This document shows positions 24,963-62,473 of a DNA stretch of 64,000 nucleotides, one piece after another (position 1 is the first letter of the stretch; the number at the start of each line of letters is the position of its first letter). This DNA is from Antedon mediterranea (taxonomy: Eukaryota; Echinodermata; Crinoidea; Comatulida; Antedonidae): contig NC_092671.1 of NCBI RefSeq assembly GCF_964355755.1, positions 34,863,304 through 34,927,303 of the forward strand, written 5' to 3'. The notes beneath the pieces are model-generated. The model searched no databases, was not told the DNA's origin, and saw only the letters and a list, made by a program, of their open reading frames with translations. The position numbers and the translations under genes were made by a program.

Positions 24963-25739
24963 TCACATTATTTTAACAACCTCATACACATCTTCGATCA
25001 TTTTTTTGTTGCCTTTAGCGGTTGGTTTGTTGTATATGTCTGTTACTTCAGTGATTACTGTCATCTTTTGATCATCTTTGTTTGTCATCTGGTTTGAAGG
25101 ATTTCTCTTGTACAGTAATGAGATTATTAGGAGTAATAGTAGAATAATAATAACTGCACCTAGGGACAGTCCAATGACCAAGGTCCTTGTCGTTTCAATG
25201 CACGGGGTCTCTGATGTTGTAATTGTTGTCTCTGGTGTTGAGGTCATACTCTTCGGTGTTGTGGTCACTGTCTCTAATGTTGCGCTCCATGTCTTTGTTG
25301 ATGCTGCTGTTGTAAAATATAATTGTTTATTAATATGTTTCAGCACTCTGCATTTTTTCCTATGCAACTTTTCTTTATAATACAACTTACATATGAGGTC
25401 AATTTCATCACCTTCACGGTGTTTAGTTGGCAGTTGACATGTTATGGTCCCATCCTTTGCTGCTGTTGTCAACTGTGATTTTTCAGTTTGTTCCTTTATT
25501 GTGCCGCATGTGTTGACATCCTCTTTCCAAGAAATATATTCAGATTGGTATGATCTCATTTCGTCATTATCCCAAATACATCTGAGATAAATGGTATGAC
25601 CTTCATAAGTACATACAATAGGCCTAGTATTACCAGATTTATAATTCCATTCTTTTTCAGATATTGTTTGAGTCATTTTCAGTACATTTGCAATGAGTGA
25701 AGTTATCCACAAAATATTTACAACTTTGCCTCTCGCCAT
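24963..25739 (-). CDS. Gene B: Ig-like/mucin-stalk membrane receptor, paralogue of gene A
   Basis: 258 aa, one open frame. Signal peptide about 1-25 (MARGKVVNIL, almost the same as gene A). One Ig-like domain about 35-135 (C43, C54, W71, C101, C117, C130), a Thr/Ser-rich stalk about 143-183 (likely O-glycosylated), TM about 185-209, then LYKRNPSNQM. The tail is short (about 47 aa), with tyrosines in TDIYNKP and EDVYEVV but no YxxM repeat. TM and juxtamembrane match gene A closely (ITEVTDI shared); the ectodomain does not. An optional 84-base intron may exist: GTAAGT at 25390-25385 and TTTTACAACAG ending at 25307, in frame, whose removal would delete 28 residues at the Ig/stalk border. Function is inferred as a cell-surface receptor or regulator of gene A. 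Confidence 0.85.
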   Translation of the reverse strand: MARGKVVNILWITSLIANVLKMTQTISEKEWNYKSGNTRPIVCTYEGHTIYLRCIWDNDEMRSYQSEYISWKEDVNTCGTIKEQTEKSQLTTAAKDGTITCQLPTKHREGDEIDLICKLYYKEKLHRKKCRVLKHINKQLYFTTAASTKTWSATLETVTTTPKSMTSTPETTITTSETPCIETTRTLVIGLSLGAVIIILLLLLIISLLYKRNPSNQMTNKDDQKMTVITEVTDIYNKPTAKGNKKMIEDVYEVVKIM

Positions 25740-27148
25740 GACTGCAGGTTTGATTAATATTGAATGTAAATTTATAAATTCACTTCCTTAAAACGAGGTT
25801 GTAAACTAAACAAACAAAATGATACATTTCACAACCAATAGTTGCACTTTTTATTTTATAAACAAATAGTCCTTTCCTTCAATAAATGTATATAAAATGT
25901 TGGACATAAATTAAAACAAATGTATAACCAATTTAGTGTTAAGCATTGTCTTGGAATGTTAAAATATCATAAGGACGGATTTATTCTTTTATCACACACA
26001 CCTTAATACCTATAATTATTAAATTATTGTATATACTGTACATATACAAATGATAATCAACTGGAATTTCCTAAAAAAAAGCATAAATAAAAGTGAATAA
26101 TTTCATCCAACCATTTCTTCCAACAAGGTCTGTATACATTTTTAAATGTTTAAATTTAGTTTTAGCATGACCAAAGAAAAGTTGATCAATGGCTAGTTGC
26201 CATCCCTCAAATATGTTATATGAACATGTCAACCAGTACTATAATGATGTATTTAAAGCATGTGCTACTACTGCCTGTAAATCAGTCAATGGGTTAAAGG
26301 TGAAAGGCCAATGTACAACAATGAATACTATAGGCTAATGTGTACATGAATGTTGACCTCTGTCCTTTTTTTAAACTTACATTGAATGTAAATGTTCTGT
26401 TGGGTTTTCTTTCTAAAATCTTCAAGATTGAACAACTGAAATTGTTATCATGGAAGAAGTATAAAAAACAAAACGTCGGTCTTATCACTAAAGTTATGAA
26501 CATATTTCGGAAAGACACATTTAATGGACGAATTTTTCACTTATTGCACAGATTATTTGTTTTAACCTGAAAGTTTAACATGAATGCTTTCTTAAAAAAC
26601 ACATTTAGATATAAATAGGTTTAGATAATCCAAGTCATCAAGGTATGCATATTAAGCTGCTGCTGTATTTATTTACATATTGAATATTTTATTCAAATTG
26701 TCAAAGACACACTGCCTCTTTTGGAAATGATGTAATAGGTAAAAGTTAATCAATATATGCTAACAAATGTAAGTAACTGGAAGGGCTATGCTACACCACC
26801 TCACACAGAATGGTATGATGAAACACACTGTTTATAGTTTAATACAGTTCTATGAATTATAATGGCTGAAAAAACTAATTCATGTTCTATGTCAATTGTG
26901 GGTGGAGCCTATATAATTCCAACCAACCTAATCATTTCCCTCATGCCAGGAAACAGGACAGTAGGATGATAGTCATAGTCAGAGTATGAATGTAAAATAC
27001 CATTTTTCATTTGTTGTCAATAAATTATTACAACAACTATAATTCCTGTTCAATTAAATTTGTAGCTGGAGCCAAATTCTGACCAACCAATCATGTTCAT
27101 AAATCCACTATTGCAAGTGTTTAATGCACACTTTTTCCTCCTTTTCTT
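25740..27148. other. Intergenic gap between gene B and the RhoGEF 3' end
   Basis: The upstream flank of gene B shares CATGACTGCAGGTT with gene A. On the - strand AATAAA (TTTATT at about 26668) lies roughly 480 bases beyond the RhoGEF stop and could end its 3' UTR. No other gene is seen. Confidence 0.45.
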
Positions 27149-39100: not shown

Positions 39101-42100
39101 CAGCAGTGTATACGTTTATATAGAGCTTTGCACCAGAGGGTGTGTAAGCACTATTGAACCTAGTATTGTAGACATGACATAGTTTCTATTCCTTTTAAAA
39201 TTATTTACATTTTGTGCAAGAATACAATTTCAATTCTCCTCTTTCTTGCCATCTACCAACTCTCCCACTTTATGTTTGCTAGAGATACACGTCTTATATA
39301 AATAGGACAAAAGCAGTATCATACTATCCATGTCAGCAAACTCTCCACAGTCACGTCTTTATTTCGCATTGCATTTACTGCCTTTATATGTACTTTCGTT
39401 ATACTCTACAGCAATTAATACAAAAGTGGCAGATCAATATTTTGGGATTTTATATTTCACTATAATCAATATTAATTCTATTCATATAACCTTGAAATTG
39501 AAAAACAATTCCATTCTTATTTGATTTGTCAGGATTTCTAATAAGAATTCTAAACATTATAAATACTGTACATTAAAATAAAACTGTTTGTTTAAACAAT
39601 TACATTAAATCCGTATTATTTCTAAATAAAAGGTATGATTGGTCTTACAGTTGATGAATTCTAAATAAGGACATATCCAAGAATAAGGGGGAAATGAGAT
39701 TCTTCCACGGAGAGAAATGATACTTGTCAAGTGTGGATCTAATATTTTGTGGAGTGGGGAACTAACATTCAGTATACTATTAATGTTAGTATTATTAGTA
39801 GTCTGTCATTTCATTTCATTTCATTATTTATTTGGTCTAAGTATATACAAAACAAAAAAACTGAAATTGGGGAGACCAGGGTCAACCTAAGTGAACTTAA
39901 TCACTGTAGCTGAGCCGGTTGACCCAACCCCAAAGTCAAAAATAGAAATACAAAAACTTAGTTCAAAATTTAATTTTAGCTGACAAATGGGGTGCACACA
40001 CTGCTAGCACTATCCCTTGGTTCCGCCCCTACTTTTACACTATCCAACATTTAAAAGTAGTGGTGTATCTCTTTACTATTTATTCATAGCAACTTTGTGA
40101 ATGGCAGAAATATTTATTTTAAATCAAAAAATGTTTAATTTCAGAAAAAAATGTATTGAAAAAGTACTTTTATTTTCTAATTTTCTGTAAATAAGTTTTA
40201 AATAATAGTAAATTGGAAATTATAAAAAAAAATGTACTGACCTCTTTATTTTGTTTTGTTCTTTTGTCACTCCCAGATCTTCGATGATGTCTCTCTGTTT
40301 TGGCAACTTCTCTCTCTACTTTGTTTTCGTCTGCAATTCAACCATTAAAATAAAATGTTACTATTAATTATGGAAGGTTTTTTGAAGTAAATGCTCAACA
40401 ACAGGCATATTTAAACAACTTAATATTTACATTAAAATTATTTTAAGTGGTAAAGAACAAAATTTAATGTATAATATTGAAAGAAGAAGTGTTGGTTGCA
40501 ATCAAGTTTTAAATTTTCAGTCAATTGTGGTCTGGAAAAAACTCATGGACAATATCAGATATGTGAATTGCTATGTTGAGAAGAAATCTGCAAATATTTG
40601 GAAGCTTTTGTAATCCCAAAAACAAAAATGTGTATTGCAACTAATAATGATGATACATACAGGTACGTAAAAATTATAAATAAAATTTAAAAAAGAAGTT
40701 TAAAGATTAGTGAATATAAAGGAATCTTACCTTGACTTGTTGCTCTTCTTAACGCTTTATTTTCCTCTGATTTTATCAAGTCATTTTGTTCTTTTTCTGT
40801 CGATTTTCTTCTCTCTCTTATTTCTTTTTCACTTCCTTTTGTTATTTTTCGTGTTAAAAATGGAGACTTAAATCGTTCTACTGGTTCACTCCTGCGCAGT
40901 CTTGTTCTTGAAGTTGACCGCTTTTCTTTAGGTTGTGAAATATCTCTAGAACTTTCTCTTGAATTTCTTTCATCTGTTTTTTCTTCTGACTTATCTTTAT
41001 GCTCTTTTTCTGGTTTTGACAACACTCTTGAAGTCTTTAAACCTTCTTTACTTTTCCTTCGAGTTACCTTGGAGTCAACACCAATATTCTCACTGGATTT
41101 GCTACCAAATACTTTAGGAACTTCTTCATCCAATTCACTATTAGGTAAGTCTGAGTTAATGTTCTGATTTTTCTTTTTCTGTGTACTCTCTGACTTTCTG
41201 GGTGAGACTAGCTTAATTCTTAAGTCACTAAGTTTTTTCATTTGTTTGAACTCTTCAAAGGATGGAATGTGAGTCTTTGGCTTAGATTGCAACCCCAAAC
41301 TATTACATCTACCTCTAGGAGTTTCTGAAAGATTCATAGATGGACTTTCATTGAATGTTGTCATCTGCTCAATTGGACAATTTTTATATGTATCTAAATT
41401 TGAAGGAACACTACCAGACTTTCTAAGTTCTTTACCAGATGATGGCTTGTCTCCACATAGTGGAGTTATTCCACCTTTTTTTTCTTTCCAAGCAACTGTC
41501 GGCTCACTACTTGGTTTTTTGTTTTCAATGTTATTGTTATCCGGTGTGGAAGGATAATTATCATTGTAATTGAGTGAATAAATAGGTTGTGAAATATCAG
41601 TAACAGATGCCTCTGAATTTTCAAACATACTTTGGAAAGAAAATGCTTTTAAAGGTGTTGGTGACATACTTCGGCTGCGACTTAAATTGGAACTTTCAGC
41701 AATAAGAGAGGCAACAGGTGATTTCTGTGTGTCAAAGTCTGTAGGACCTTCCCTAAGATCAAGACTATCATTATTCTTTAGATATTTCCTTAGCTTGGTT
41801 GTACTCTTCAGGGCTTCAGACCTGGGAGAGATTGTCTTAAAATTTCTTAAAGTATCCTTCTCAGACTTTGATCTGTATAAGTTTGATTTGCCATCCATTA
41901 CAGATGAGTTCTTCTTCTCTTCTGTAGTGATGACAATCGCAGGAGAAGCTGCACATCCTGGTAAATTATCCCATTGTTTGTCAATAATTGAACTTGTTAA
42001 ATCACAGTTGGATGATAAATAACTTGGTGTTGAAGATAAATAAGAAGAAACTGAAAAATCTACAGGATTGGAAAATGACCGTGTAATCAAAGATCGACTC

Positions 42101-42756
42101 TGGTCATGAACAGGGCTTGGGGTTGCAGATCGTAACCCGGTAAAAGTTTTTTGGGCTGTTGAATGTGTTGTCCATGATGGTGAGTATGGTCTGTTTGTAT
42201 AACTTGCGCTATCAGACATCCATGCAGTTGTTGGTTTAGAAAAATTCAAGTTTTCAATACTAGATTTTGGTTTCGCACGCATGTTAGAAAATTCCTGGTT
42301 TATAGAATCATTACTGGCATTTAAAGGTGATCTGGAATCATCATGTCTTATTAAATCAGAAGAAATCGTGCCTTGTCGTAAATCTGGAGAAACTGTACAT
42401 TGCCGTAAATCTGTTAAAGAATCTGAGGTTCTAGTCTTGTACAAATCATTGTAACTTACTGAACTTGATGTTAAATTTGATTGTAACGCTGTATCAGAAT
42501 GCAAATTTACAGAGTATATTGACAATCCTCCAATGCCCGAACTACTTCCATTTTTTCTCCCAACTAATGGAGATTTTGACAGTGAATTTCTACGATATGA
42601 GTAACCTCCATGGGAATAATTCAGGAATGAAGGCCCAGGAGTGGATGTTGCTCCATAGCCAAGGCTAGAATAGCTGCCAGATAATGTAGACCCCTTCGAG
42701 GAGGCTTTGTCAGTTAAGCCTGATGTATCATGAATTGAGTATGGTAGGCCTGCCAT
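27149..42756 (-). CDS. Dbl-family RhoGEF with Ser-rich N-terminus and CxxC...CxxC knot (16 exons)
   Basis: Predicted to activate Rho-family GTPases. Coding exons, in gene order: 42756-40731, 40330-40242, 37091-36929, 35915-35800, 35457-35350, 33633-33494, 32069-31874, 31298-31221, 31125-31039, 30482-30337, 29954-29840, 29577-29482, 29381-29226, 27860-27729, 27463-27371, 27277-27149. They join in phase to 1289 codons plus TAA. The first about 675 aa (one exon) are Ser/Thr/Arg-rich and disordered. Then come basic segments, two TDSGVG/VDSGVG motifs, CYDC-x18-CKKC, and the DH domain (AITEFIQTEVNYLEDIKVM as CR1; LMVPVQRSMRYPLLLNRIYK as CR3). A PH-like region ends in EECDSWLMLVKHY. I chose the second ATG (42756): it has A at -3 and G at +4, unlike the ATG at 42771. 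A 3' splice site at 42795 shows a 5' UTR exon further upstream. Subfamily not recognised. Confidence 0.88.
27939..28293 (-). mobile_element. 5S rRNA-headed SINE (SINE3-like)
   Basis: On the - strand, 28293-28175 is a near-complete 5S rRNA: CTACGGC start, CACCGAAGTTAAGCA, GGGCCTGGTTAG, CTTGGATGGGAGACC, TGGGAATA, GGTGCTGT, covering the internal Pol III promoter. It runs on without a terminator into about 230 bases of non-5S sequence ending in an AATAAAATAAAAATTG tail and TTTTTTT. This is the plan of SINE3 elements known from fish and other deuterostomes. It lies sense-oriented in the intron between RhoGEF exons 13 and 14. A degenerate 5S pseudogene is the alternative. Confidence 0.8.
28294..29225. 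other. RhoGEF intron 13, remaining part
   Basis: Holds AT-rich sequence without a recognisable gene upstream of the SINE. The frame across 28866-29081 shows no family resemblance. Confidence 0.5.
30854..30889. repeat. 17-bp perfect palindrome
   Basis: CATAGAGATATTATAGT, a TC loop, then the exact complement, in the RhoGEF intron between exons 9 and 10. Confidence 0.85.
33336..33483. mobile_element. MITE family A, copy 4
   Basis: TAAAGCTCTGTCTACACTAT on the left and ATATTGTAGACAGATCTTA on the right, with GTGATGTGCCCAAATAT / TATATGGGCACATCAC inside. 148 bp in RhoGEF intron 6. Confidence 0.85.
33715..33865 (-). mobile_element. LINE 3' end with (AAATCAA)n tail
   Basis: Read on the - strand: GACCCCATTGGAAATAAGTC, TCATGGGCTATCCTGC, then TAATAAATCAAATCAAAATC. 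This 3' UTR and short-repeat tail are typical of L2/CR1-type LINEs. In RhoGEF intron 5. Confidence 0.6.
33866..35349. other. RhoGEF intron 5, remaining part
   Basis: About 1.5 kb of AT-rich intron. I see no RNA gene, coding exon or clear repeat. Confidence 0.5.
36180..36256 (-). other. Decayed tRNA-like / B-box sequence
   Basis: The - strand contains a B-box GGTTCAAATCC and a weak A-box TGGTAGTGGCACTG at the right spacing, but the anticodon and acceptor stems do not pair. Probably a tRNA pseudogene or the head of an old SINE in a RhoGEF intron. Confidence 0.4.
37155..37256. mobile_element. MITE family A, copy 5 (decayed left end)
   Basis: Carries the AATGTGATGTGCCCATATAT subterminal block and the right end GTAGACAGAGCTTAA; the left terminus is degraded. 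Lies just upstream of RhoGEF exon 3. Confidence 0.65.
38263..38362. mobile_element. Foldback element, about 100 bp
   Basis: The left arm AACTTATTTAGTGCATA and right arm ATGCACTAAATAAGTT are inverted; homology extends imperfectly to about 30 bp per arm around an AT-rich loop. Confidence 0.7.
39790..40040 (-). mobile_element. LINE 3' end with (AAATG)n tail
   Basis: On the - strand: GGTTGGGTCAACCGGCTCAG, GTTGACCCTGGTCTCCCCAA, then ACCAAATAAATAATGAAATG and further GAAAT repeats, a typical CR1/L2-type 3' terminus inserted in a RhoGEF intron. Confidence 0.6.
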
Positions 42757-43994
42757 GATTTTGTTCTTCATGAATGAATTTTACTGGCAGAGGTCTGTAG
42801 AAAACACAAGCATTTATCACACATCATCCAGATGTTTGTCATACCATCTTCTTCATTGTATTTGTTACATTGATTTCAAGTCTTTAATTGAAATTATATC
42901 CTTTAGTTAACTCTTTCATGATATGTTAGAACAATCTGAAAAGATAATTAGAAAAGATGTAATTAATCAAAAGACTTTTATCAGCAATTACATGTAGGCC
43001 TACTATAATTTAACTTTTTTTAAATTTTATATCAAAAATATTTGTCTGAGTACATGCTGGGCACACATGTTGTCATGTCACTAATACTGCAATAAAAGTT
43101 TGGATTTAGTGGATGTTTCTATACAAATTCATCAAAAAGAAAATTACTAAATAAAATAATGTTGAATTCCAACATAAAATAAATCAAGTCTAAATTGAAA
43201 TATTTAAGAAATTGAGACAAAATTACTATAAACTAAAAGTCAAAAAATTATTTTATATTGTAAAGTTATAAGATCATATTGTAATCAAGATGTTTAAAAA
43301 TAAATAATAGTGGATGCTTTGAAAATTAAATTAGTACGAAAATGGTTCCAAAAAGTGTAAATAATAGTAATATCTGAATTCAAAAGGAAGGAACCTTTTT
43401 GTAGAAAAAAAAGGTAATTATTTAGATTAATTACTTTGCACAGAAGATCCAGTATCACAAAAGTCTAAGACAAAACCACTAATAATAGAATCATTTACGA
43501 TATTCCTTACACTGTAATGATTTTAACTTTAAGCAGGCTTTCAGTACAGTAGGTTCTTTCTTTCTAACTTACTGTACAAGCCTCATTATAAGGTAGGCCT
43601 ACATGGAGTGGTAAAACATTGTTGATTCTGTTGTCTTACACTTTAGTGTTAGATAATCCGGTGAATTGTATGTTACAGTAAACTGTATTGTTCAAGCTTA
43701 ACGACCTTTGTCATTAGCATCTATAACATGTTTATAGGTGTATATCTATAACATTTTCATTTCTTTTTTATTGCTCAGATATATATAAAAAATGCTTAAC
43801 CCTATTAACTGTATTATACAGATAATTAACGTTTGATACTAACGGGTTACCAACGGATGGGAAACGATCTAATAAGTGAATCTGCGATTTGATTGTAAAA
43901 TTGGTCTAAAAATTATTTTGAAAATATTTGATAGCTTCAGTAACTAAAATTGATAATGTAACATATTCACTTCACAACCAATGACTACCTCATT

Positions 43995-47030: not shown

Positions 47031-49746
47031 GATATTAATCAAAAGACAGTATTCCATTTCTTTTTATTCTTATTTACCAGTCTTATATACCAGATTGTTA
47101 TTCTACCATATAAATATTCAAAATGTGAAAATGTTGTGAATAGTATAGTACAGGCTCAGTACTTTAATTTCCAGGCTTTTCAAACATATTTTTAATGTTT
47201 TGCTGTAGGCAGAAGTTATTCTTGAGCAGACGTTATTCTTGCGCAGACATGTGGTAATAGTTCTAAACTATACAGTACTGTGTTTTATCAATCTACGATC
47301 ACCAAGTTCCCAACTATTCTCAAATAAAAAGTTGAGAAAAATACACCTGATGGTAGAATGAGTCTTCTCAGATAAAGACTATAAACCGTACAGTAGGTAC
47401 AGAGTGTAGACAAACTATACAATATGCTTATGTGTGCACTTAAAATAACCTACAGTATTACATCTTTCAAGATGAGTAGGGGTTACCCCGGTAGTACTCT
47501 GTACATGTAGTACACTCACAGCCACTGTTGTGGACAGAGGGTGAGAGCATTTGGATTGGCAACACTAAAGTACAGGTAACATGACATGTCACCGTGTAAA
47601 AAAAAAAAGTCGCAGCACCATGAGCAATGGCGTTATACAAATAAACATCATTCTAATTCTCAAATCATCTGCCTTTGGCTAAAAATCACCACAATGATAG
47701 CTTTTTAATCAAATTATTTTACATCATTTAAGTGAAACAGAAAATTGTACACAAAAATATATTAATCGGGTCATGTTAATAATTACTATATAAATATTAT
47801 AATAGCTTTGGCTTTAGCTTATTTCCTGATCAGTTCTATATTTATTTTTAGAATGTCACATAAGTGTCATACTGTCTCCTATCACATTCATGTATTTTCT
47901 AAAGCATATTATTAAATGACACCTTAAGATCTATATATTCACCTGTTGAAAAACTGAATGACAATTTTTGTGTAAAAGGAAAGAAAAATCTATACAGTTG
48001 CCTTTCAGTAAAAACAGGCATTTTAATTTATAGTCTGCTTAAATTCATCTGAAATATTTTTGTTTTTAATCAAAATGAAAAATCTTTATGTTTTTATATA
48101 CCTGTAGTCCTATGGCTTTAATGTTCAAAATTTTTGAAAAAGTGAAAATTGAGGGAATGTGAACATTCTTATTAAAATAATATGACCATCATCAAATGAA
48201 TTTCTTTAGTATAGAAATTGGAAAAATCTAAGGCTCTTTAGGCCAAGAAAAAATTCTGGTTCATTTTTATTCTGAATAAACTGGATGTATCTAAAGTATG
48301 GCCTACTTTATGAAATACAAATAGGGCCTTTGTTTACAGGTTGCAGAAAAAACAAAAATTATATGTTTTCTTATAATTTTCAAATGTGTTCTTTGCTTTT
48401 AATTTTATAGTTATTAAAAATGTATTAATGTTATAAATTTTTCAGAATTTTTTATTATGAGAGATTGTTTACAATTCTAAACAAATGAATAGCAATTGAA
48501 ACAGATTTGTAGACAAAATGATATCATACTCACCACTTTGTTGGTATAGTACTAAAAATCCATTTTAATATATATTCCAAAAATAAATTCTCCCAAAAAA
48601 ATCAACAAGGAATTGAGGGAATGTAGTTTTTAGCTCTGTTACTGTGAAAAACAACCTGTATCATCATGCTAACAAGACCTGAATGAGATTCTTCACCACG
48701 CAAGGACGTGTACTATACATAACAATAGGTAATTGAATATTGATTCCCCAACCAATAAGGTTCATTCATTATACGCTTCACTGCACCTGGTCTAATGTCC
48801 ATCTTTGAATACAATGCTAAGTTTCTTTAATACTTACTTTAGGGGATTAGTTAATTATTCATGGGTTTATCCGTTCATTTTCATTATCGTCCACGAATGA
48901 CGTCAATTTTGATTGATTTTTTTTTTATTTGGAAGCATAAACAAAGGAGTAAATAAAATGAATTGCTTGTAGGAATGTGTTGTTTGTAATGTTTTTTTTT
49001 TTCAATTTACCGTGCTTCAAAATCTAATGAATTTTTTATACATAAATTGATTTCCTCCCTTTTGTCAGCAAAAGTTGCCTTGATTATTGGATTTTATAAA
49101 ATAAAGAAAAGTTTTTTATATTTTTAACTATACATGTAATTTTGTTAGGCCTAAAGTTTACAAATCTACTATAGAGAAATTTTAACATTTCCCTATTATT
49201 TTAATAATTATTATTTTAAAATAAATTAGAAGTATATGTCATTATATCAGTATTCCATTGTAGCAATGGCATCTTCACTGAGAAGTATACAGCAATTTAA
49301 AAGAAATAATAATTTTACATATTTTGATTTTCAGAAAATGGATTGGATGAATGAAAATAAGAAGAAAAAATCCAAAAATGCAAGGACTGAACAGAAGATA
49401 CAAAGATTTGTCAAATACAAAGTTTAAAAGGTAGTTTACTGCATTTCATCTAAGTAGAATCTTATATGCATACAAAATGCATTTTTTTTCGAACACGGAG
49501 AATGTATAAAACTATATTGCTATCTATGTAATTGTTGGTAAACAAGAAAAGTGTAAAGCTCATAAGCATAAATATAAAACAAGTAGAAACTACAAACATT
49601 TTAATGAAAATGAATTTAAAAGGGATATTGAAAAAATAAACTGGCAAGAAATTCAACATTATAATGATATTGATGACGCTACATATTTTTTCGAATCTAA
49701 TTTTCTTAAAATTGCTAATGATTATGCCCCGCTAAAAAAGAAGAGG

Positions 49747-51699
49747 GTGCGAAACAAAACTAGTCCTTGGCTAACAGATGATCTAGTTAGGTCTATGCGT
49801 GAGCGTGATGTACTAAAAAAGAAAGCATCTAAAACTAATACACCTGAAATGTGGGCTCAATACAAACTAAGTAAAAATAAGGTAAATGCTGAAATAAAGA
49901 AATGTAAAAAAGAATATTTTTCTAAACAATTAGATACAAAAGATTCAAAGAAAATATGGGAAACTTTAAGATATATTGTCCCAGCAAAGAGTATAAACAC
50001 TGAAATATCAAACTTAAAAACAAATGATAACAAACTAACAGCAGACTCTTCTAAAATAGCCAACAATTTAAACAAATATTTTTCTAAAATAGGACCTGAC
50101 CTTGCAAAAAACATCCCACCAGAAATTCCTAGATTACTTATTGTAAATAATACTAATCAAAGTAGGGACCTACTTAAATTTAGTTTTGTTAATCAGGAAT
50201 ATATTTATAAACAATTAAACGCACTCGATGTTAGTAAAGCGACAGGCTTAGATGAGCTTCCAGCTAAAATGCTGAAGTTGGTTATTGATCAAATCGTTGG
50301 ACCTCTCACTTATTTGGTAAATCTCTCACTCTCAACCAGTACTTTTCCAAAAAGATGGAAATGTGCCAAAATATGCCCAGTGTTTAAGGGGGGAGATAGG
50401 ACTGAAGCTAGCAACTACAGACCCATATCAATTTTACCGATTCTTTCTAAAATTATCGAGAGGGTTGTATTTGATCAGGTCTATCAATTTATTAACTCAA
50501 AAAATATGATTTATGCTTACCAATCAGGATTTCGTCCTAATTTCTCTACTGTATCTTCATTATTAAACATTACAGAAGATTGGATAAATGATATTGATTG
50601 TGGGAAGTATATAGGTTTAGTCATGCTTGATCTGAAAAAAGCTTTCGACACGGTAGACCATACCATACTTATAGACAAGCTTAAATCATTTAACTTAGAT
50701 GTCTCTATTATAAATTGGTTTAAAGACTATCTTTGTGATCGTACGCACTTAACACAAGTAAATGGTGTCCGATCAGATAAATGCTATAGTAATTGTGGAA
50801 TCCCCCAAGGATCAATTTTGGGACCACTCTTATTTATACTTTATGTAAATGATCTACCAAAGCATGTAAATAGTGTACAGATTAGTATGTATGCAGATGA
50901 TACAGCTCTTTACTTTGCATCTTCTGATATAAATGAAGTACTTGCAAAAATTAATGAAGATTTAAAAAAAATCAAATCATGGCTAGCAAGTAACAAGCTT
51001 AGTCTAAATGTAAATAAAACTCAGTGTATGTTTATAGGAACACAACAAAGGCTTGCAAAATTAGCAAACATTGATCTAAATTTAAACATAGACAATGTTC
51101 GGCTACAAAGAGTAAAAAGCTGTAAACATCTAGGTGTTGTTATTGATGAATATTTACTGTGGGATAAACAAATAGATAATGTTAAAAGTAAAGTATTGCC
51201 AGGCTTGTACTACTTAAAAAAATCTTCAAATCTCGTCCCAAAACATGTATCTTGCTTAATGTATAATAGTATTATCTCTCCACAGTTTAACTATTGTAAT
51301 ATTGTGTGGGGCAGATCAAATAAAAAAAATACTAATAAACTACAAATGCTACAAAACAGAGCAGCCAAAATTATTACAAAAACAAGGAAATACGACTCAA
51401 GTACACAAGCCCTGCAAAACTTAAACTGGATAAATCTTAATACTCAACTACATAATAATGAAGCCAAAATGTTATATAAAATATTCCATAATCAAGCACC
51501 ACCATATCTAAACGAACTATTTACACCCAAACTAGACACATACAATACAAGATCAAAGGATGTATTAAAATTGAATAAACCCAAAACAGAATATAAAAAA
51601 AAAAGTTTTTCATATCATGGTGCTAGTTTATGGAATACTCTAAAAAAACCAATGCAAAATGCCACAAATTTGAATACTTTCAAAAAATTATTGGTGTGA
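49747..51699 (+). CDS. LINE reverse transcriptase ORF (5' truncated)
   Basis: 650 aa from the first ATG; the same frame is open about 79 codons upstream. RT landmarks by residue: YRPISILPILSKIIERV at 224-240, YQSGFRPNFST at 258-268, motif A LDLKKAFDTVDH at 294-305 (Asp295), GIPQGSILGPLLFILYVNDL at 351-370, motif C YADD at 382-385, and KHLGVVID at 460-467. The C-terminal module ends SYHGASLWNTLKKP then FKKLLV, typical of the CR1/L2/Jockey group. An apurinic endonuclease domain is missing through 5' truncation, so the copy cannot move by itself, although RT residues are intact. The start codon is arbitrary. Confidence 0.92.
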   Translation: MRNKTSPWLTDDLVRSMRERDVLKKKASKTNTPEMWAQYKLSKNKVNAEIKKCKKEYFSKQLDTKDSKKIWETLRYIVPAKSINTEISNLKTNDNKLTADSSKIANNLNKYFSKIGPDLAKNIPPEIPRLLIVNNTNQSRDLLKFSFVNQEYIYKQLNALDVSKATGLDELPAKMLKLVIDQIVGPLTYLVNLSLSTSTFPKRWKCAKICPVFKGGDRTEASNYRPISILPILSKIIERVVFDQVYQFINSKNMIYAYQSGFRPNFSTVSSLLNITEDWINDIDCGKYIGLVMLDLKKAFDTVDHTILIDKLKSFNLDVSIINWFKDYLCDRTHLTQVNGVRSDKCYSNCGIPQGSILGPLLFILYVNDLPKHVNSVQISMYADDTALYFASSDINEVLAKINEDLKKIKSWLASNKLSLNVNKTQCMFIGTQQRLAKLANIDLNLNIDNVRLQRVKSCKHLGVVIDEYLLWDKQIDNVKSKVLPGLYYLKKSSNLVPKHVSCLMYNSIISPQFNYCNIVWGRSNKKNTNKLQMLQNRAAKIITKTRKYDSSTQALQNLNWINLNTQLHNNEAKMLYKIFHNQAPPYLNELFTPKLDTYNTRSKDVLKLNKPKTEYKKKSFSYHGASLWNTLKKPMQNATNLNTFKKLLV

Positions 51700-55147: not shown

Positions 55148-56689
55148 TTAGGTTTGTAATGTAGCATAAGTTATGCTTTGATCTTTGTCTATTATGTCAC
55201 ATGAGGTGGAAGTTCTAAGGTCCAGCTCAGCATAGTTAAGGCCCTCTGCATTTAGCATGTCTTCGATATCTTGTGTAAAAGGTCTGTTCTCATATAGAAC
55301 TTCATCATTGACCTGTGTATTAATATCACAATTATTGACATCTATTTGATTGGGTATGGATGAATAATAAACATCATCACAGGTGTCTCCACCTTCATCT
55401 ACGTTAGTTGTCACTATAGTCCTTTGAACAACCTCATACAATTGTGTGTTATTGAAGAGTGTTTCTGAGGTTACAGATTTATTGCTGAATATGGTTCTGT
55501 GTAATTTTTGTCGATTAAGAAACACAACTATCAACAATATCACAGATATAGCAATGACGGCCACTCCTAGAATAACTCCGACTATTGGTCCAGATTTGCT
55601 ATTATCAAGTTCAGTTATAGGCCCATTCATACTACTATTTATGTCCTGATCATTGTTAAGAAGTGTTGTTGGAAGAGTGTATATCTGTTGCCTTATGGTC
55701 AAAGTAGCTGATGAATTCCAAATCATTCCATCTTCTCTTACAAAACATGTGATAATAAATAGTTGATTTACAAGCAAAGTATTATTAAGTTGAAGATCAG
55801 TGATGTTCAAAATTGATATCATGGAAGTAAACATGTTTCCAGGAATGTATGGTGAGACCTGCCATTCATACGTAAGATTAGTTGTCTTAAGGTTTCTTGC
55901 AGAACACTGAAAATGAACATTAGTTGACTCTTGCACTGATAGTAATTTAGGTTTAATTTCCACATCAGGTGATAATACATTAAGTCTGATTGTACAGTTT
56001 CTTGTCTCTTCCAAAGCTTCACTGTCAAGATAGCATGTTAATTCAGTGTCATTTCTTTCAATTATAATTTCATTAGATTTTACCCATTTGTAATCGATGA
56101 CATCACTGACTATACTCTCAGCAACATTGACACCAGATATTGTGATGGTAAGATTTGGAGATGTACTTCCATGATCTTCTGAAATACAGTGAAGTCTGAT
56201 TGACTCACCAGTATATAATGGTGTATCAGAAATAATCCACTTAGCATTGTTTTTTAAAAAACAATAAGGAGAGGTTTCAGATGGTGGCTTGTGGACTGTT
56301 AGTTTAGCAGTAGCAGGGTTTGGCTGGAAAGCGAATGCATAATTTTCACTTCTATAACCAAATCGGCACTCGTATAATCCAGCATCAGAAAGCTGTACGT
56401 TTGAAAGTGTTAAATGGTAAGATAAACTGTTAAAAGATACAAAGTATTTGCTTGGAGATACTGATGAATACAACTGGTAAGCTCTGGTAAGATACCGAGT
56501 TTCGTTTTTCCAAAACAAAGTATAAACATTTGTATCATAAGTTGCTTTACAGTTAAAGACAACATCTGAGCCAATTCTTACTTGAGTGTCTTCTGGACCA
56601 GAAACTAAACTCTGGCTGTTAACATTAGAAATAATTGTAGAAATAATATAAGAATATACAACTATTTCAAATAGTCTGACAAACCTCAT
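55148..56689 (-). CDS. Gene C: intronless three-Ig inhibitory-type receptor with ITIMs
   Basis: 513 aa, single exon. Signal peptide 1-25; V-like Ig1 about 27-133 (C47, W60, DAGLYEC at 102-108); Ig2 about 143-239 (C168, C219); Ig3 about 242-333 (C262, W276, C315); many NxS/T sites. TM about 368-391 (GVILGVAVIAISVILL), uncharged. Tail tyrosines: QLYEVV (Y418); VYYSSI (Y442, ITIM-like); VLYENR (Y466, the YxN type bound by GRB2); LNYAEL (Y486, canonical ITIM); ITYATL (Y508, canonical ITIM). In animals, phosphorylated ITIMs recruit SHP-1/SHP-2 or SHIP phosphatases; extrapolation to this protein is inference. It is the first of three tandem same-strand copies and shares promoter palindrome and 3' UTR words (GTATTGTTCTATAGAGGGCT) with gene D. 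Confidence 0.92.
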   Translation of the reverse strand: MRFVRLFEIVVYSYIISTIISNVNSQSLVSGPEDTQVRIGSDVVFNCKATYDTNVYTLFWKNETRYLTRAYQLYSSVSPSKYFVSFNSLSYHLTLSNVQLSDAGLYECRFGYRSENYAFAFQPNPATAKLTVHKPPSETSPYCFLKNNAKWIISDTPLYTGESIRLHCISEDHGSTSPNLTITISGVNVAESIVSDVIDYKWVKSNEIIIERNDTELTCYLDSEALEETRNCTIRLNVLSPDVEIKPKLLSVQESTNVHFQCSARNLKTTNLTYEWQVSPYIPGNMFTSMISILNITDLQLNNTLLVNQLFIITCFVREDGMIWNSSATLTIRQQIYTLPTTLLNNDQDINSSMNGPITELDNSKSGPIVGVILGVAVIAISVILLIVVFLNRQKLHRTIFSNKSVTSETLFNNTQLYEVVQRTIVTTNVDEGGDTCDDVYYSSIPNQIDVNNCDINTQVNDEVLYENRPFTQDIEDMLNAEGLNYAELDLRTSTSCDIIDKDQSITYATLQT

Positions 56690-56713
56690 TTTTGATGATA
56701 GATCAATGATTGT

Positions 56714-56724
56714 GTTTCAGTTTC
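56714..56724 (-). promoter_or_regulatory. IRF/ISRE-like GAAACTGAAAC, gene C
   Basis: On the - strand GAAACTGAAAC fits the GAAANNGAAA core bound by IRF-family factors. It lies 25 bases 5' of the ATG, so it may be in the 5' UTR. Conserved exactly in gene D. Confidence 0.35.
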
Positions 56725-56755
56725 TATTCAACTTCACTGTGTGCTATGTTGTTTA

Positions 56756-56765
56756 GTATTTAAAC
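56756..56765 (-). promoter_or_regulatory. TATA-like element, gene C
   Basis: TTTAAATACT on the - strand, in the position where gene D has TATAAAAC; followed upstream by the shared CAGGAAATAATT word. Confidence 0.35.
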
Positions 56766-56841
56766 TTGAATTATTTCCTGCCTCGAACAAAATGGAGGGA
56801 GGAGGATTTCCTACACCGTACTATTCAGGATGTGTATGGCC

Positions 56842-56867
56842 ACTTGATACTATCTTTGGTATTGAGT
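56842..56867. promoter_or_regulatory. Conserved upstream palindrome, gene C
   Basis: ACTTGATAC-N8-GTATTGAGT, 153-178 bases upstream of the ATG. The same element with the same 8-base spacer occurs upstream of genes D and E while the surrounding DNA has drifted. Confidence 0.6.
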
Positions 56868-57983
56868 ATTATAGGCTGATTATAGAGCATGGAGGTGTAA
56901 CATTTGAGTATAGTAGTACATGTATAGTGTAAAACAAAAGTACCATTTAAATTATTGGGAAATACTGCATATCTGCTCTTTCATACACATTGTATGCTGC
57001 AAATTTTTCCAAATTTAAACAAACGGCCAAAATTGGTTCAAAATCAGACTCGCATTTGAAGGCTTTTAGATAAACAGGCTTCATATATTTAGAATAACTC
57101 TGCAATGAAACCATTCTCAGATAATATAGTACAATGCTTTATCATTTTATTGTAACTGATTAATTTATAGTGTACAGAAAAAGTTTAAAGCTGCCAGATG
57201 AGTAATGTAAAATATTATACTAAAAATTATATGATAATATAACAACAATAAGCACTGTAAAAGAATGAACCAAATTCTACAAAAGGAAATATTATATAAT
57301 AAATTGCATTTCAATGCTTTAGTAAAAAATATTTTATAATTTATGTACTTATATTTAATCTATTATTTTTAGTCAAGGTCTGAATGAGTACTGAACCCAG
57401 CCTTGTATGCAGTGGTCAGTCAATTCAGATAATATAGCTTGCATATTAATTTTAGATATAATTGTTTATAGATGATGCTATTTATTATTGTATAATTTAA
57501 ATTAAGATGTTAATTTAAAGATATTCTAAGAAGCAGTGATCAAGCCAGCCTGTAAGCAAAGTTTCTGGTATATTTTGTTATATCATACTTGATTTATTAG
57601 AAGCATTTCTTAGGACATAGTAGGCCTATATGGACCTAAATTATATTTTAGGATCTTACTTTGTATGACAAAGGATTTTGTATTATTTTTTTTTTCAATT
57701 TTAAATTGAAAGAGTGGAATAATGTAAAATGTTCACATTATTTTTAGTTATTATTAGTTGATTTATTTGAATTTTTTGCAGAAAATCATCCTCTTTGAAA
57801 GGCCTAAATAGTAGAATATTAAATGAAAAAAGTTGCCGGTATTTTAAGTATTGTATTTAAAAAAGAAAACACAGAAAAAGTTTTCATAGTATTGTTCTAT
57901 AGAGGGCTCACTTCAGGTCACCATTTCTAAACCTGAAATTAAGTTTTGTCCCAAAACATGCGTCGTTTTGTCAGTTCTGTTGT
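56868..57983. other. Intergenic gap between genes C and D
   Basis: About 1.1 kb of AT-rich DNA. The right end (from about 57890) contains the 3' UTR of gene D, with GTATTGTTCTATAGAGGGCT shared with gene C. Confidence 0.5.
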
Positions 57984-59498
57984 TTAGTTGTTCAATGTAG
58001 CATAAGTGACGCTTTGCTCTGTGTCTATTATTTCACCTGAAGTGAATTTTCTAAGATCCAACTCAGCATAGTTTAGTCCCTCTGCATTTAGCATGACCTC
58101 AGCATCTCGTGTAAAATTTTTGTTCTCATATAGAGCTTCATCATTGCCATGTGTATTGCTAAGAATATCACAATTGTTGACATCATTTTGATTCGGCACT
58201 GATACATTATCACATGGGTCTTCACCTTCATCTACGTTTGTTGTCATTCTATTTCTCTTTTTAACAACAACTGCATACAACTGTGTTTCATTAACCTGAC
58301 GTATTTCCGATTTGTTAGATTTATTGCTAAATAAGATAATGCATACTTTTTTGCGATTAAGAACAACTATCAACAATATCACGACAGCTATAGCAACAGT
58401 GACTGTTCCTATAATCACTGCAACTATATATGATTCCGAATCGCTGTTTTCAAGTTTAGTTGTAGGCCCATCACTACTATTAAAGTCCTGATCATTGTAA
58501 ATAAATGTCGTTGGTAGAATATCGATCTCTCGTGTTATGGTCAAAGTAGTAGATGAATTCCAAACCATTCCATTTTCTCTTACAAAACATGTAATGATAA
58601 ATAATTGATTTTCAAGTAAAGTATTATTAAGCTTAAGGTCTATGATGTTAAAAATTGATGTCCTGGAAGTAAAGATGTCTCCAGGAACATATGGTGAGAC
58701 CCGCCATTCATACTGGAGATTAGTTGTCTTAAAGTTTCTTGCAAAACACTGGAAATGAACATCATCCGCTTTTTGCACTAATAGTAATCTAGGTTTAATT
58801 TCCACATCAGGTAATAATACATTAAGTCTGATTGTACATGTTTTGATCTCTTCCAAAGCTTCACTATCAAGATAGCATGTTAATTCAGTGTCATTCCTTT
58901 CAATTATAATGTTATCAGATCTTACCTCTTTGTAGTCAATTATATCACTTACAATATTCTCAGCAACACTGACGTCAGATACCATGATTTTAAGATTTGG
59001 TGATGTACTTCTATGGTCTCTTGAATTACAATGAAATGTTATTGACTCCCCAATGTATAACTTTGTTTTTTCTGAAATCCAATTATAATTTCTCTTTAAC
59101 CAACACTTAGGAGAGGTTTCAGATGGTTGCTGATATACTGTTAGTGTGGCAGTAGCAGGTTTTGGATAGAAAGAGTATACATTGTCATTATAAAAATACC
59201 CGCATTCATAGAGTCCAGCATCAGAAAGTTGTACGTTTGAAATCGTTAAACGGTAAAATGAATTGTCAAACGAAACTGAGTATTTGCTTGGAGTATACAC
59301 CGTGTTGCCCCATGTAAGTAACCGAGTTCTGTAATACCAAAGCAATGTATATCCAGTTGCTTTACAACTGAAGACAACATCTGAGCCAATTCTTACTTGA
59401 GCGTCGTCTGGACCAGAAATTAAAGACAGGCTGTTGACAGTAGAAATTAAAATAATTATAATGTAAGCATATACTCTAAATAGTCTGACAAACTTCAT
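57984..59498 (-). CDS. Gene D: intronless three-Ig inhibitory-type receptor with ITIMs
   Basis: 504 aa, single exon, tandem paralogue of gene C. Signal peptide about 1-23; V-like Ig1 about 25-122 (C45, W54, DAGLYEC at 93-99); Ig2 about 131-229 (C157, C208); Ig3 about 232-323 (C251, W265, C304). TM about 357-380, uncharged. Tail: QLYAVV (Y408), ALYENK (Y457, GRB2-type YxN), LNYAEL (Y477, ITIM) and VTYATL (Y499, ITIM). The spacing from YEN to the last ITIM matches gene C, but the VYYSSI site of gene C is deleted (NVSVPN here). The V domain is the most divergent part between C and D; Ig2 keeps IIIERNDTELTCYLDSEALE. Predicted surface inhibitory receptor; partner and ligand unknown. Confidence 0.92.
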   Translation of the reverse strand: MKFVRLFRVYAYIIIILISTVNSLSLISGPDDAQVRIGSDVVFSCKATGYTLLWYYRTRLLTWGNTVYTPSKYSVSFDNSFYRLTISNVQLSDAGLYECGYFYNDNVYSFYPKPATATLTVYQQPSETSPKCWLKRNYNWISEKTKLYIGESITFHCNSRDHRSTSPNLKIMVSDVSVAENIVSDIIDYKEVRSDNIIIERNDTELTCYLDSEALEEIKTCTIRLNVLLPDVEIKPRLLLVQKADDVHFQCFARNFKTTNLQYEWRVSPYVPGDIFTSRTSIFNIIDLKLNNTLLENQLFIITCFVRENGMVWNSSTTLTITREIDILPTTFIYNDQDFNSSDGPTTKLENSDSESYIVAVIIGTVTVAIAVVILLIVVLNRKKVCIILFSNKSNKSEIRQVNETQLYAVVVKKRNRMTTNVDEGEDPCDNVSVPNQNDVNNCDILSNTHGNDEALYENKNFTRDAEVMLNAEGLNYAELDLRKFTSGEIIDTEQSVTYATLNN

Positions 59499-59526
59499 TG
59501 TAGGTTTAGCACGAATAAATGGTTGC

Positions 59527-59537
59527 GTTTCAGTTTC
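59527..59537 (-). promoter_or_regulatory. IRF/ISRE-like GAAACTGAAAC, gene D
   Basis: Identical to the gene C motif, 29 bases 5' of the ATG, near the predicted start site set by the TATA at 59563. Confidence 0.35.
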
Positions 59538-59562
59538 TACTCAGCTTTACACTGAGCTATGT

Positions 59563-59570
59563 GTTTTATA
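59563..59570 (-). promoter_or_regulatory. TATA box, gene D
   Basis: TATAAAAC on the - strand, 65 bases 5' of the ATG. Predicts transcription starting about 30 bases downstream, near 59535. Confidence 0.5.
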
Positions 59571-59626
59571 ATTTAAAATAAATTATTTCCTGATATACAA
59601 CGCTTAGCAGCCAAAATGGAGGAAAG

Positions 59627-59636
59627 GGGAATTTCC
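59627..59636. promoter_or_regulatory. kappaB-type site, gene D
   Basis: GGGAATTTCC fits the NF-kappaB/Rel consensus GGGRNWYYCC perfectly, about 60 bases upstream of the TATA box. The aligned position in gene C (56802-56811, GAGGATTTCC) has one key mismatch; gene E has none. Confidence 0.5.
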
Positions 59637-59686
59637 TAAAACATACAATTCATGACAAACATCGTTCTTTCAGGATGGGTATGACT

Positions 59687-59712
59687 ACTCGATACGATCT
59701 CTGGTATCGAGT
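59687..59712. promoter_or_regulatory. Conserved upstream palindrome, gene D
   Basis: ACTCGATAC-GATCTCTG-GTATCGAGT: perfect 9-bp arms, 189-214 bases upstream of the ATG. Confidence 0.65.
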
Positions 59713-61059
59713 ATTTTAGGTTGATTATGAAATAAACAAAGTATCAGTTAAACAATAAGGAAATACAATGCCCTTCTTCCATACAATGTGTTTGTTATGC
59801 TGCATTTAATAAATCAAAATAGTTATTGTATATCAAATGTAAGGTGTGTCAGTATTCAATTGGACATAAACCACTTGCATTATTATTATAAGACTTTTCG
59901 ATGGTTATTATACTTATATTTGAAAAAACTGTGCAACAAAATAATTTTCAGATGTAATATAACACAATGCTTTTAATACCTTTTAATTGCAACTGATTAA
60001 TTTATGTTTACAGCAAAATTCTATAATATACATTAATTATTATTATAAAATATCTGTAAAATAAAAATCAATGATAATATAATCAATTAAAAGAATCTAG
60101 AGAAGAAAATATGGTATAAATTATCTTTCATATTTCCCATGTTTTTGACCTTTTTTAATTATCTGTTAATAACAGTAACTGACAGAGAGGCAATAAATAT
60201 CCAGTATTATGCAATTCTTGGTAAATTCTGGAAAACATAATTATAGTTTGTATATTAATACGCCATACGATTACATGACCTATACTTTTCTTATAGTCTA
60301 TATACTTCCTATTTACAATTAATCATAACATGATTTTTTTCAATTTTCTAAATTAGACCATTGTGGTAAATCAAAGCACATATTTCCTGTATTTTTTATT
60401 TTTTTTTTTTTTAAATTAATTAATTTTTTACATACAATTCAAGAAACATTTTCGATAGGCTCAGAAAGACTAGGTTTTATAAATACAACGGCTTCACAGT
60501 ATTCAATATTCACCAATTATTATACTGTTGTAACTGATTAGTTTACTGTGTACAGCAAAAGACTAAAAATAAAAGCTGATTAATAATATAAAATATTGAG
60601 GTACATCTGATTAGTTTAATATAAAAACGATTAGCTACGGAAGTATAAACACAAAGAAGTTACATTTCATACTACTAATATTTTGTAAATATTTACAATC
60701 TATCTTATTCAATCATTAATTTATTGAATTTAATTATAAAAAAAACTAAACGTGTGGCAAAACCCAGCCTTGGCACAGCAACTTTATGAGACATTCTGAT
60801 AATTAGTAAAATTCAGATAATGGTAGCTTGTTTATTAATCTTAGATATGATATATGTTTGTATAGGTAACACTATTTAGGCTACTATTGATCACCTAAAT
60901 TATGCTGGGTTATTTTACTTATACTTTTTTATCATCATCTCTGGTTTTTTGTCGCGTGCAAACGCGACTCTACAGCTCACTATGTCGGTCGGTCGGTCGG
61001 TCAGTAAACACTAACTCAAATTTGCAGCCATGTGACGGTGACCATCACGTGAAATATCT
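59713..61059. other. Intergenic gap between genes D and E
   Basis: AT-rich, about 1.3 kb. CGGTCGGTCGGTCGGTCAGT at about 60985 is a short tetranucleotide repeat. No coding exon is seen. Confidence 0.5.
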
Positions 61060-61138
61060 TGTTCAGCAAAGTTTTTTTTCAGATCCAATGTTTAGCCATC
61101 GTGTGTGATACCTTGTAAACAGGTTCTCAGTTCTCATA
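61060..61138 (-). pseudogene. Decayed ITIM tail downstream of the gene E stop
   Basis: Immediately past the gene E stop the - strand still matches the C/D tail: TATGAGAAC (YEN), then TTTACA, CTAAA and TTTGCTGAAC, corresponding to TATGCTGAGC in gene C. The frame is shifted and the ITIM tyrosine codon position reads TTT. It is the untranslated remnant of the lost inhibitory tail. Confidence 0.7.
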
Positions 61139-62473
61139 TTAAACTTCATCATCTTCATTGGATACAGATAAATAATAAATAGCATTATCACAAGAAACTC
61201 CACTTTTGTGTACATTAGTTGTCATTCTTATTCTCTTATTAACGAACGAGTCTAATTTATTGTCATTATCCTGGGTTTCTGATTTTATAAATTTATTGCT
61301 GAACAGGATTCGGCGTAATGTTTGCCGATTAATAATAACTATTAACAATATTGCAGTTATAGCAATGACGGCCCTTCCTATAACCACTCCCACTATTACT
61401 AGTTCAGATTTGTTGCTATCAAGTTTAGATAGTCCATCAATATTACTATTAGAGTCCTGATTATCGTCAAGAACTATCGGTGGTAGATTAATATGGATCT
61501 CTCGTGTTATGTTTAAAGTAGTGGATGAATTCCAAACCATTCCATCTTTTCTTACAAAACATGTAATGGTATATAGTTGACTATCGACTAAAGTATTACT
61601 AAGCTTAAGATCTATGATGTCAAAGCTTGACGTTGTGGAATTAACAATGTCTCCAGAAATATATGGTGAGACCTGCCATTCATACTGGAGATTGTTTGTC
61701 TTAAAGTTTTTTGCAGAACAATGGAAATGAACAGCATCTGTCTCTTGCACTGATAGTAATTTAGGTTTGATTTCCACATCAGGTGACAATACATTAAGTT
61801 TGATTGTACAATTTCTTGTCTCATCCAAAGCTTCACTGTCAAGATAGCATGTCAATTCGGTATCTTTCCTTTCAATAATAATTGTATCAGATTTTACCCA
61901 TTTGAAATCAATGACATCACTTACAATATTATCAGAAACAATGACATCAGATACCGTGATGGTAAGATTTGGAGATGTATTTTTATGATCTACTGAGTCG
62001 CAATGAAATATGATTGACTCACCAATGTATAATGGTGTCTCGTAATAAATCCAATTAGCATTGCTTTTTAAAAAACACTGAGGAGAAGTTTGAGATGGTG
62101 GCTGGAGGAACGTTAGTTTAGCAGTCGCAGGATTTGGCTGGAAAGGTAGTGCATTTTTCCTATTATAACCAAACCGACACTCGTATAATCCAGCATCAGA
62201 AAACTGTACGTTTGAAATCGTTAAACGGTAAAATGAACTGTCAAAAGAAACAGAGTATTTGCTTCGAGACGTAGATCGAAACAACCGGTCACCCCTGGTA
62301 AGATACCGAGTTTCGTTTTTCCAATACAACGTGTAATTCATATAAGTCGCTTTACAGTTGAAGACAACGTCTGAGCCGATTCTTACTTGAGCATCTTTAG
62401 GGCCAGAAATTAAATTAAAAATAATTATTATGTAAGCATGTAGACAAATTTCAAATTGTCGGACAAACTTCAT
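61139..62473 (-). CDS. Gene E: tail-truncated paralogue with arginine in the TM helix
   Basis: 444 aa, single exon, third tandem copy. Signal segment about 1-20 is shorter than in C/D (the VNSLS part is missing). Ig1 about 22-122 (C40, W51, DAGLYEC at 93-99); Ig2 about 133-229 (C157, C209); Ig3 about 232-323 (C252, W265, C305). TM about 358-381 reads VGVVIGRAVIAITAILLIVI: Arg367 replaces Val of gene C within the membrane. The tail stops after SNEDDEV, just before the YEN/ITIM block; a TAA replaces the Leu codon of LYEN. The QLYxVV tyrosine is also gone (KLDSF). Only AIYYLSV (Y434) remains ITIM-like. A basic TM residue plus a short tail is the signature of activating receptors that pair with an ITAM adaptor. 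Alternatives: a decoy receptor, or a gene starting to decay, although the frame is intact. Confidence 0.88.
   Translation of the reverse strand: MKFVRQFEICLHAYIIIIFNLISGPKDAQVRIGSDVVFNCKATYMNYTLYWKNETRYLTRGDRLFRSTSRSKYSVSFDSSFYRLTISNVQFSDAGLYECRFGYNRKNALPFQPNPATAKLTFLQPPSQTSPQCFLKSNANWIYYETPLYIGESIIFHCDSVDHKNTSPNLTITVSDVIVSDNIVSDVIDFKWVKSDTIIIERKDTELTCYLDSEALDETRNCTIKLNVLSPDVEIKPKLLSVQETDAVHFHCSAKNFKTNNLQYEWQVSPYISGDIVNSTTSSFDIIDLKLSNTLVDSQLYTITCFVRKDGMVWNSSTTLNITREIHINLPPIVLDDNQDSNSNIDGLSKLDSNKSELVIVGVVIGRAVIAITAILLIVIINRQTLRRILFSNKFIKSETQDNDNKLDSFVNKRIRMTTNVHKSGVSCDNAIYYLSVSNEDDEV

Follow-up and report, generated by a model that had tools for sequence, protein, structure and literature searches.

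Paired receptors are described, in the available part of a review (PMC3533184), as clustered genes with shared ectodomains, in which inhibitory members carry immunoreceptor tyrosine-based inhibition motifs (ITIMs) and activating members combine a short tail with a transmembrane Arg or Lys for an adaptor bearing an immunoreceptor tyrosine-based activation motif (ITAM). Cattle KIR are reported to carry one short tail of common origin, which recombination has placed on different receptors, and five of their six genes with activating potential are reported as non-functional (PMC4258407). Activating and inhibitory systems have already been proposed for invertebrates, most notably fester/FcoR of Botryllus (PMC12065747), and an immunoglobulin (Ig) receptor with an ITAM has been described in a review for the oyster (PMC11999971). 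Here we describe three neighbouring Ig receptor genes, C, D and E, from the crinoid Antedon mediterranea. They lie within a 64,000-nucleotide stretch of DNA, hereafter the window (C2:34863304-34927303, C2 being contig NC_092671.1), of an assembly of 354 Mb in 18 contigs that was also searched as a whole. Considered together, the evidence set out below makes it probable that C, D and E represent a crinoid family of convergent paired receptors.

All three are tandem single-frame genes on the minus strand, and the list of open reading frames (ORFs) confirmed them as intact at the coordinates given in a preliminary description of this DNA (positions below are those of the window unless C2 is named). 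Pfam detected Ig domains in each receptor, the first domain being the strongest. Three Ig domains per receptor are suggested by our reading of the sequence and by a low-confidence AlphaFold model of E (mean predicted local distance difference test score 58) that contains three beta-rich domains and one helix (residues 358-390). The ITIM consensus is [SIVL]xYxx[IVL], and our motif scan accepted T as well at the first (-2) position. Receptor C (55148-56689), an intronless three-Ig type I receptor of inhibitory type encoded by a 513-aa ORF, has an uncharged transmembrane helix (approximately 55517-55588, from hydropathy) and three scanned motifs, the membrane-proximal VYYSSI (55355-55372), LNYAEL (55223-55240) and ITYATL (55157-55174). 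Receptor D (57984-59498; 504 aa), also of inhibitory type with an uncharged helix (approximately 58362-58430, from hydropathy), has two, LNYAEL (58059-58076) and VTYATL (57993-58010), and no VYYSSI-type motif. Both tails finish with LNYAEL followed by I/VTYATL, as the preliminary description held, although its count of two ITIMs overlooked the third in C. The VYYSxI, LNYAxL and xTYxTx positions recur in a full-length relative from another comatulid crinoid, Anneissia japonica LOC117110744, which is 38% identical overall, reads VYYSTI, LNYADL and TTYSTV at these positions and, by eye, has an uncharged transmembrane segment.

Receptor E (61139-62473), an intact ORF of 444 aa, is of a different type, with an Arg-bearing transmembrane helix and a truncated tail. 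Its helix (residues 358-381, approximately 61331-61402, from hydropathy) reads GRAVIAI where C reads GVAVIAI and D reads GTVTVAI, which puts Arg367 (codon AGG, 61373-61375) at about position 10 of 24, and its ORF ends at the leucine of LYEN, where TAA (61139-61141) stands in place of the CTA of C and D. The preliminary description was correct on the comparison of the C and E helices, on Arg367, on the stop at the LYEN leucine and on the uncharged helices of C and D. Its further claims, that the stop had removed the ITIM block and that E differs from inhibitory receptors by exactly the two changes found in activating ones, stood only in part: the Arg and the stop are present and the distal ITIMs are gone, but E retains a canonical ITIM, IYYLSV (61163-61180), homologous to VYYSSI of C, and is therefore not ITIM-free, and its tail carries many other changes, such as loss of the tyrosine of TQLYEVV in C (KLDSFV in E). 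DNA alignment with C, D and further genes described below (F, G and the broken copies) showed the sequence past the stop (approximately 61010-61138) to be recognisable as the former distal ITIM region, with indels, frame breaks and an altered LNYAEL tyrosine codon, so that ITIM loss in E amounts to more than one stop. The signal peptide of E has lost the segment represented by NVNSQS in C, and its cleavage site may differ from that of its relatives.

The combination of Arg and stop is not confined to E. A second intact gene, F (C2:34965824-34967209; 461 aa), about 40 kb from E, shares both the AGG codon (Arg375) and the TAA stop, a recurrence that takes the pairing beyond chance; its tail holds NYYSSV, which has no canonical -2 residue and hence is no canonical ITIM. 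Four broken copies (r1a, r1b, r2 and r3, at 34.936-34.982 Mb) contain the whole or part of the same module, that is, the Arg-bearing transmembrane segment with its short tail. AGG occupies the Arg position in all five Arg-type copies that keep a transmembrane segment (E, F, r1a, r2 and r3; r1b has none), as against GTG in C and ACA in D and G, the latter an ITIM-type neighbour of F. TAA is the stop in E, F, r1b and r2, whilst in r3 one base is deleted at this position and in r1a it reads CAA, followed by TGA four codons on. A single recent nonsense mutation in E was rejected on account of this r1a sequence and of the decayed DNA past the stop. Assembly error or a rare allele, which the preliminary description had named as grounds for abandoning its interpretation, is very unlikely because intact F and the broken copies share these AGG and TAA codons. 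A census of 20 family receptors, forming part of the genome matches to C and E, placed a basic residue inside the core of the predicted transmembrane segment in only two, E and F, as judged by eye, the remaining 18 having no such residue; this count excludes a partial copy of F (L012), the shorter version of a gene read in two ways (L017/L032), ORFs lacking a transmembrane segment, one ORF with leucine-rich repeats and one non-Ig ORF.

Each intact Arg-type gene adjoins an ITIM-type gene, with D and E separated by 1.6 kb and F and G (C2:34968646-34970070; 474 aa, intact) by 1.4 kb. G has two scanned motifs, and its protein stops after LNYAELDLR. The same chromosome carries two further intact ITIM-type genes at 18.66 Mb, H and I, with three motifs each. 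About 65 kb hold the five intact genes C, D, E, F and G together with the four broken copies, and Ig1, Ig2 and Ig3 are each 63-83% identical in amino acid sequence across pairs of the five intact receptors. The locus thereby unites the sequence features by which paired receptors are recognised: ITIM members, short-tailed members with a basic transmembrane residue (Arg367 of E and Arg375 of F), related ectodomains and clustering. Vertebrate LILR, PILR and SIRP (PMC3533184), as well as CD300, resemble the crinoid set in clustering and related ectodomains, and likewise in opposing an ITIM tail to a charged transmembrane segment with a short tail. In the crinoid set, by contrast, the adaptor and the opposite signalling are putative.

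Judged from their sequences, C, D and E would work like paired receptors, a proposal that makes no claim of descent from KIR, LILR or SIRP. We infer shared ligands, phosphatase recruitment, adaptor pairing, opposite signalling and an immune role. Ligand binding would lead to phosphorylation of the ITIM-type members (C and D and, outside the window on this chromosome, G, H and I), which would then restrain the cell by recruiting SHP-type phosphatases through their SH2 domains. The Arg-type members E and F, which have related ectodomains and have lost the distal ITIMs, would pair their intramembrane Arg with an acidic residue of a putative ITAM-type adaptor, and the cell would be activated. E, with its one remaining ITIM, could be bifunctional, since a transmembrane Arg with one ITIM in the tail is also the combination described for KIR2DL4 (PMC8850630); F, lacking a canonical ITIM, may be closer to a pure activating form. 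The likeness to KIR2DL4 has its limits, in that function and ligand are known for KIR2DL4 only (PMC8850630) and E, in the comparisons made here, is unrelated to it beyond the Ig fold.

Phylogenetic analysis revealed separate histories for the module and the ectodomains. The tree of transmembrane segment and tail grouped E with F (support 100/100), and forcing F together with its neighbour G was rejected, being 63 log-likelihood units worse (approximately unbiased test, p = 1.4e-7). When the broken copies were included, the six Arg-type rows formed one group (100/100), giving the Arg module a single origin. The ectodomain trees, which were close to a star, did not recover E with F. Synonymous divergence (dS) was similarly discordant: between Arg and ITIM types (six pairs) it averaged 0.29 in the ectodomain and 0.62 in the transmembrane segment and tail, whereas between E and F it was 0.27 and 0.15, respectively, so that in its ectodomain E is as distant from F as from the ITIM receptors. 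The ratio of Arg-ITIM to Arg-Arg dS accordingly lay at 0.88-1.49 in the ectodomain and 2.45-9.44 in the transmembrane segment and tail (95% of 400 bootstraps). In the 2 kb upstream, E matched G alone, in two segments of 511 bases (93.5%) and 275 bases (86.5%), and did not match F. Exchange between neighbouring genes that kept one Arg-type module on varied ectodomains offers the simplest account of this discordance; the Arg-bearing transmembrane segment and short tail would have arisen once and have come onto ectodomains of other history through recombination or gene conversion between neighbours.

Cattle KIR provide the nearest parallel to this behaviour. Their activating members, like the crinoid module, show a short tail and transmembrane segment of single origin on divergent ectodomains; most of the activating copies are broken, as are four of the crinoid copies against two intact; and a deep split between long- and short-tailed forms extends from the transmembrane segment to the 3' end (PMC4258407). 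The two sets differ in that the cattle genes are those of a vertebrate and have a reported adaptor (PMC4258407), whereas the crinoid genes are intronless, belong to an echinoderm, would use a putative adaptor and showed no homology to KIR in the comparisons below.

Several observations weigh against the paired-receptor interpretation. The ectodomain does not reject E with F (p = 0.215; Ig1 0.137, Ig2 0.065, Ig3 0.251), so the discordance between module and ectodomain leans on dS more than on topology. F with G was not recovered in the ectodomain either (p = 0.174; Ig2 0.078, Ig3 0.251), and Ig1 rejects that grouping (0.023). Among the three ITIM-ITIM pairs, too, dS is higher in the tail (0.45 versus 0.30), and part of the tail effect is therefore a generally deeper 3' end. 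Beyond Antedon, protein searches with C (7992 candidates scored) and with the family alignment A2 (7991 scored) returned the Anneissia protein as the only relative, and residues 230-444 of E found nothing up to an E-value of 10 among 1129 candidates, a search of little power because even the Anneissia relative was missed; no Arg-type relative in other species emerged from these three queries. To the same side belong the breakage of four of the six Arg-type copies, the shortened signal peptide of E (a 9-column alignment gap where F has 8 residues) and a ratio of nonsynonymous to synonymous substitution (omega, or dN/dS) of 0.38-1.60 for the E-F transmembrane segment and tail, which includes neutrality. 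The unchanged Arg codon could also be chance, as the Arg-type tree is short, and its conservation is not taken as proof of selection.

Breakage, the shortened signal peptide and an omega indistinguishable from 1 are what would be expected if the Arg module were decaying, with E and F as late survivors of a subfamily that had its tail truncated and acquired the Arg by drift under relaxed constraint, with no activating partner; the adaptor searches, which found none, point the same way with almost no power. Yet E and F are both open despite a divergence of 0.171 substitutions per site, for which neutral simulation gave a chance of a stop-free ORF of 0.003-0.006 per lineage (5000 runs, all E-F divergence taken as neutral), and omega over the whole ORF was 0.46-0.92, falling below 1 in 99.5% of 400 bootstraps. 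On the strength of these two results, weak constraint has preserved the reading frames of E and F, with the transmembrane segment and tail compatible with neutrality. Activating KIR of cattle, moreover, are similarly prone to loss and nonetheless a functional type (PMC4258407). We therefore regard decay as unlikely, albeit with a real share of the probability; this and the two rival explanations below overlap with one another and with the paired-receptor interpretation, and their likelihoods need not sum to one.

The search for an ITAM adaptor, a check that the preliminary description had named beforehand, is a further point on the opposing side, though one of almost no power. PF02189, a profile of 20 positions, had no match in the Antedon genome, nor in any of 14 control genomes, and this search was without power since 0/14 controls responded. 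All 17 matches to PF11628 fell short of the cut-off and the 14 controls had no match; inspection of the 10 matches with loci yielded nothing convincing. Scanning the ORFs of the 124-kb cluster and of 30 kb at 18.65-18.68 Mb turned up a single ITAM-like string and no case with an acidic transmembrane residue. The want of an adaptor, subject to that lack of power, would suit E and F as decoys or regulators that bind the ligands of C and D with weak or no signal, E perhaps inhibiting through its single ITIM. IYYLSV, whose presence in E also counts against a purely activating role, and the NYYSSV of F, with its non-canonical -2 residue, are consistent with such a function. A decoy would have no need of a transmembrane Arg, however, and the residue is found in 5/5 copies with a transmembrane segment and in 0/18 other family receptors of the census, which makes this alternative rather improbable.

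Whether the paired-receptor features of this family are convergent was considered through its similarity to known structures. Antibody light chains made up most of the 60 best among 1611 PDB sequence matches to C, which also included Robo1, Dpr2 and LRIG1. Fold matches to the low-confidence model of E numbered at least 2000, and the 50 best of them were mostly antibodies, together with titin, IgLON/NEGR1, PTP delta, a marsupial T cell receptor, ICAM-1 and IgM. No KIR or LILR chain was found among either group of best matches, and the lone SIRP-alpha entry, 6nmt_A, comes from an antibody complex, its chain of 208 residues being consistent with the antibody. Kinship by descent with KIR, LILR or SIRP thus found no specific sequence or fold tie beyond the Ig fold among these best matches, for which reason 'convergent' is a reasonable term. 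The preliminary description's proposal of convergent paired receptors agrees with the receptor sequence features and with a separate module history as in cattle KIR; generic Ig similarity cannot in itself prove convergence. Such generic matches, the only kind among the best of C by sequence and of E by fold, would also suit a non-immune cluster, made up of adhesion or neural Ig receptors with tyrosine motifs for other SH2 proteins. The present genes combine tandem expansion, dN/dS of 0.47-0.74 among C, D, E, F and G and discordant histories, features typical of immune receptor clusters, leaving a non-immune role quite improbable.

Botryllus fester/FcoR share with the crinoid set an origin in an invertebrate deuterostome and a proposed complement of activating and inhibitory receptors, but there the signalling motifs are reported for the partner, FcoR, no signalling domain being known in fester (PMC12065747). 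A pair formed by a charged transmembrane segment and a truncated tail is not described in the available part of that account, and 'charged' occurs 0 times in its main text (PMC12065747). Among the open-access papers listed as matches, none dealt with charged-transmembrane paired receptors in crinoids or other echinoderms. The chances are about even that modular paired receptors of the KIR/LILR kind evolved independently in an invertebrate deuterostome, complete with a transferable Arg module that recombines onto varied ectodomains and with repeated loss of activating copies. If so, echinoderms came separately to the defining architecture of vertebrate paired receptors and to the way these evolve, and charged-transmembrane pairing, with its dynamic of short-lived activating and long-lived inhibitory members, would be a general solution extending beyond vertebrates. 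A new echinoderm ITAM-type adaptor would then be predicted, in an animal that lacks adaptive immunity built on lymphocytes. With its two Arg-type genes, both adjoining an ITIM neighbour, the cluster would provide a test bed for the generality of the rules that govern inhibitory and activating pairing.

The receptors of this cluster belong to a wider family. Genome searches with C and with E each gave at least 36 matches, and a more distant member gave at least 75 on C2, C3, C6, C7 and C11, with C, F, G and I included. Most of the latter were single open frames of about 400-1200 aa, many of them close together, and Antedon mediterranea appears to possess a large genome-wide set of multi-Ig receptors that are apparently intronless. 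A relic of the family at C2:25.2254 Mb (L018:7441-7866, plus strand) has an Asp within its transmembrane segment (GTVVVAIDVV) and a VTYATV motif. Adjoining the H and I cluster, at C2:18.67 Mb (L017:2920-5292, minus strand), is a 791-aa ORF with leucine-rich repeats and a TIR-like end, which looks Toll-like by eye.

Further features were recorded in the window itself. Between receptors B and C, at 49510-51699 on the plus strand, lies an open reverse transcriptase ORF (Pfam RVT_1), and a serine-rich open frame of 697 aa, with no Pfam match, occupies 40687-42780 on the minus strand. Ig receptor A (15150-16514, minus strand) has a tail unit repeated four times, once as HDYMAI and three times as YDYMAM; we take its YDYM and YMAM strings to fit YxxM, a motif of the phosphoinositide 3-kinase type. 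ORF B (24963-25787, minus strand), for which no Pfam match exceeded the cut-off, is shorter, with a start and transmembrane segment like those of A and a short tail ending in VYEVVKIM. From their sequences, A and B are possibly another pair of long-tailed and short-tailed receptors.

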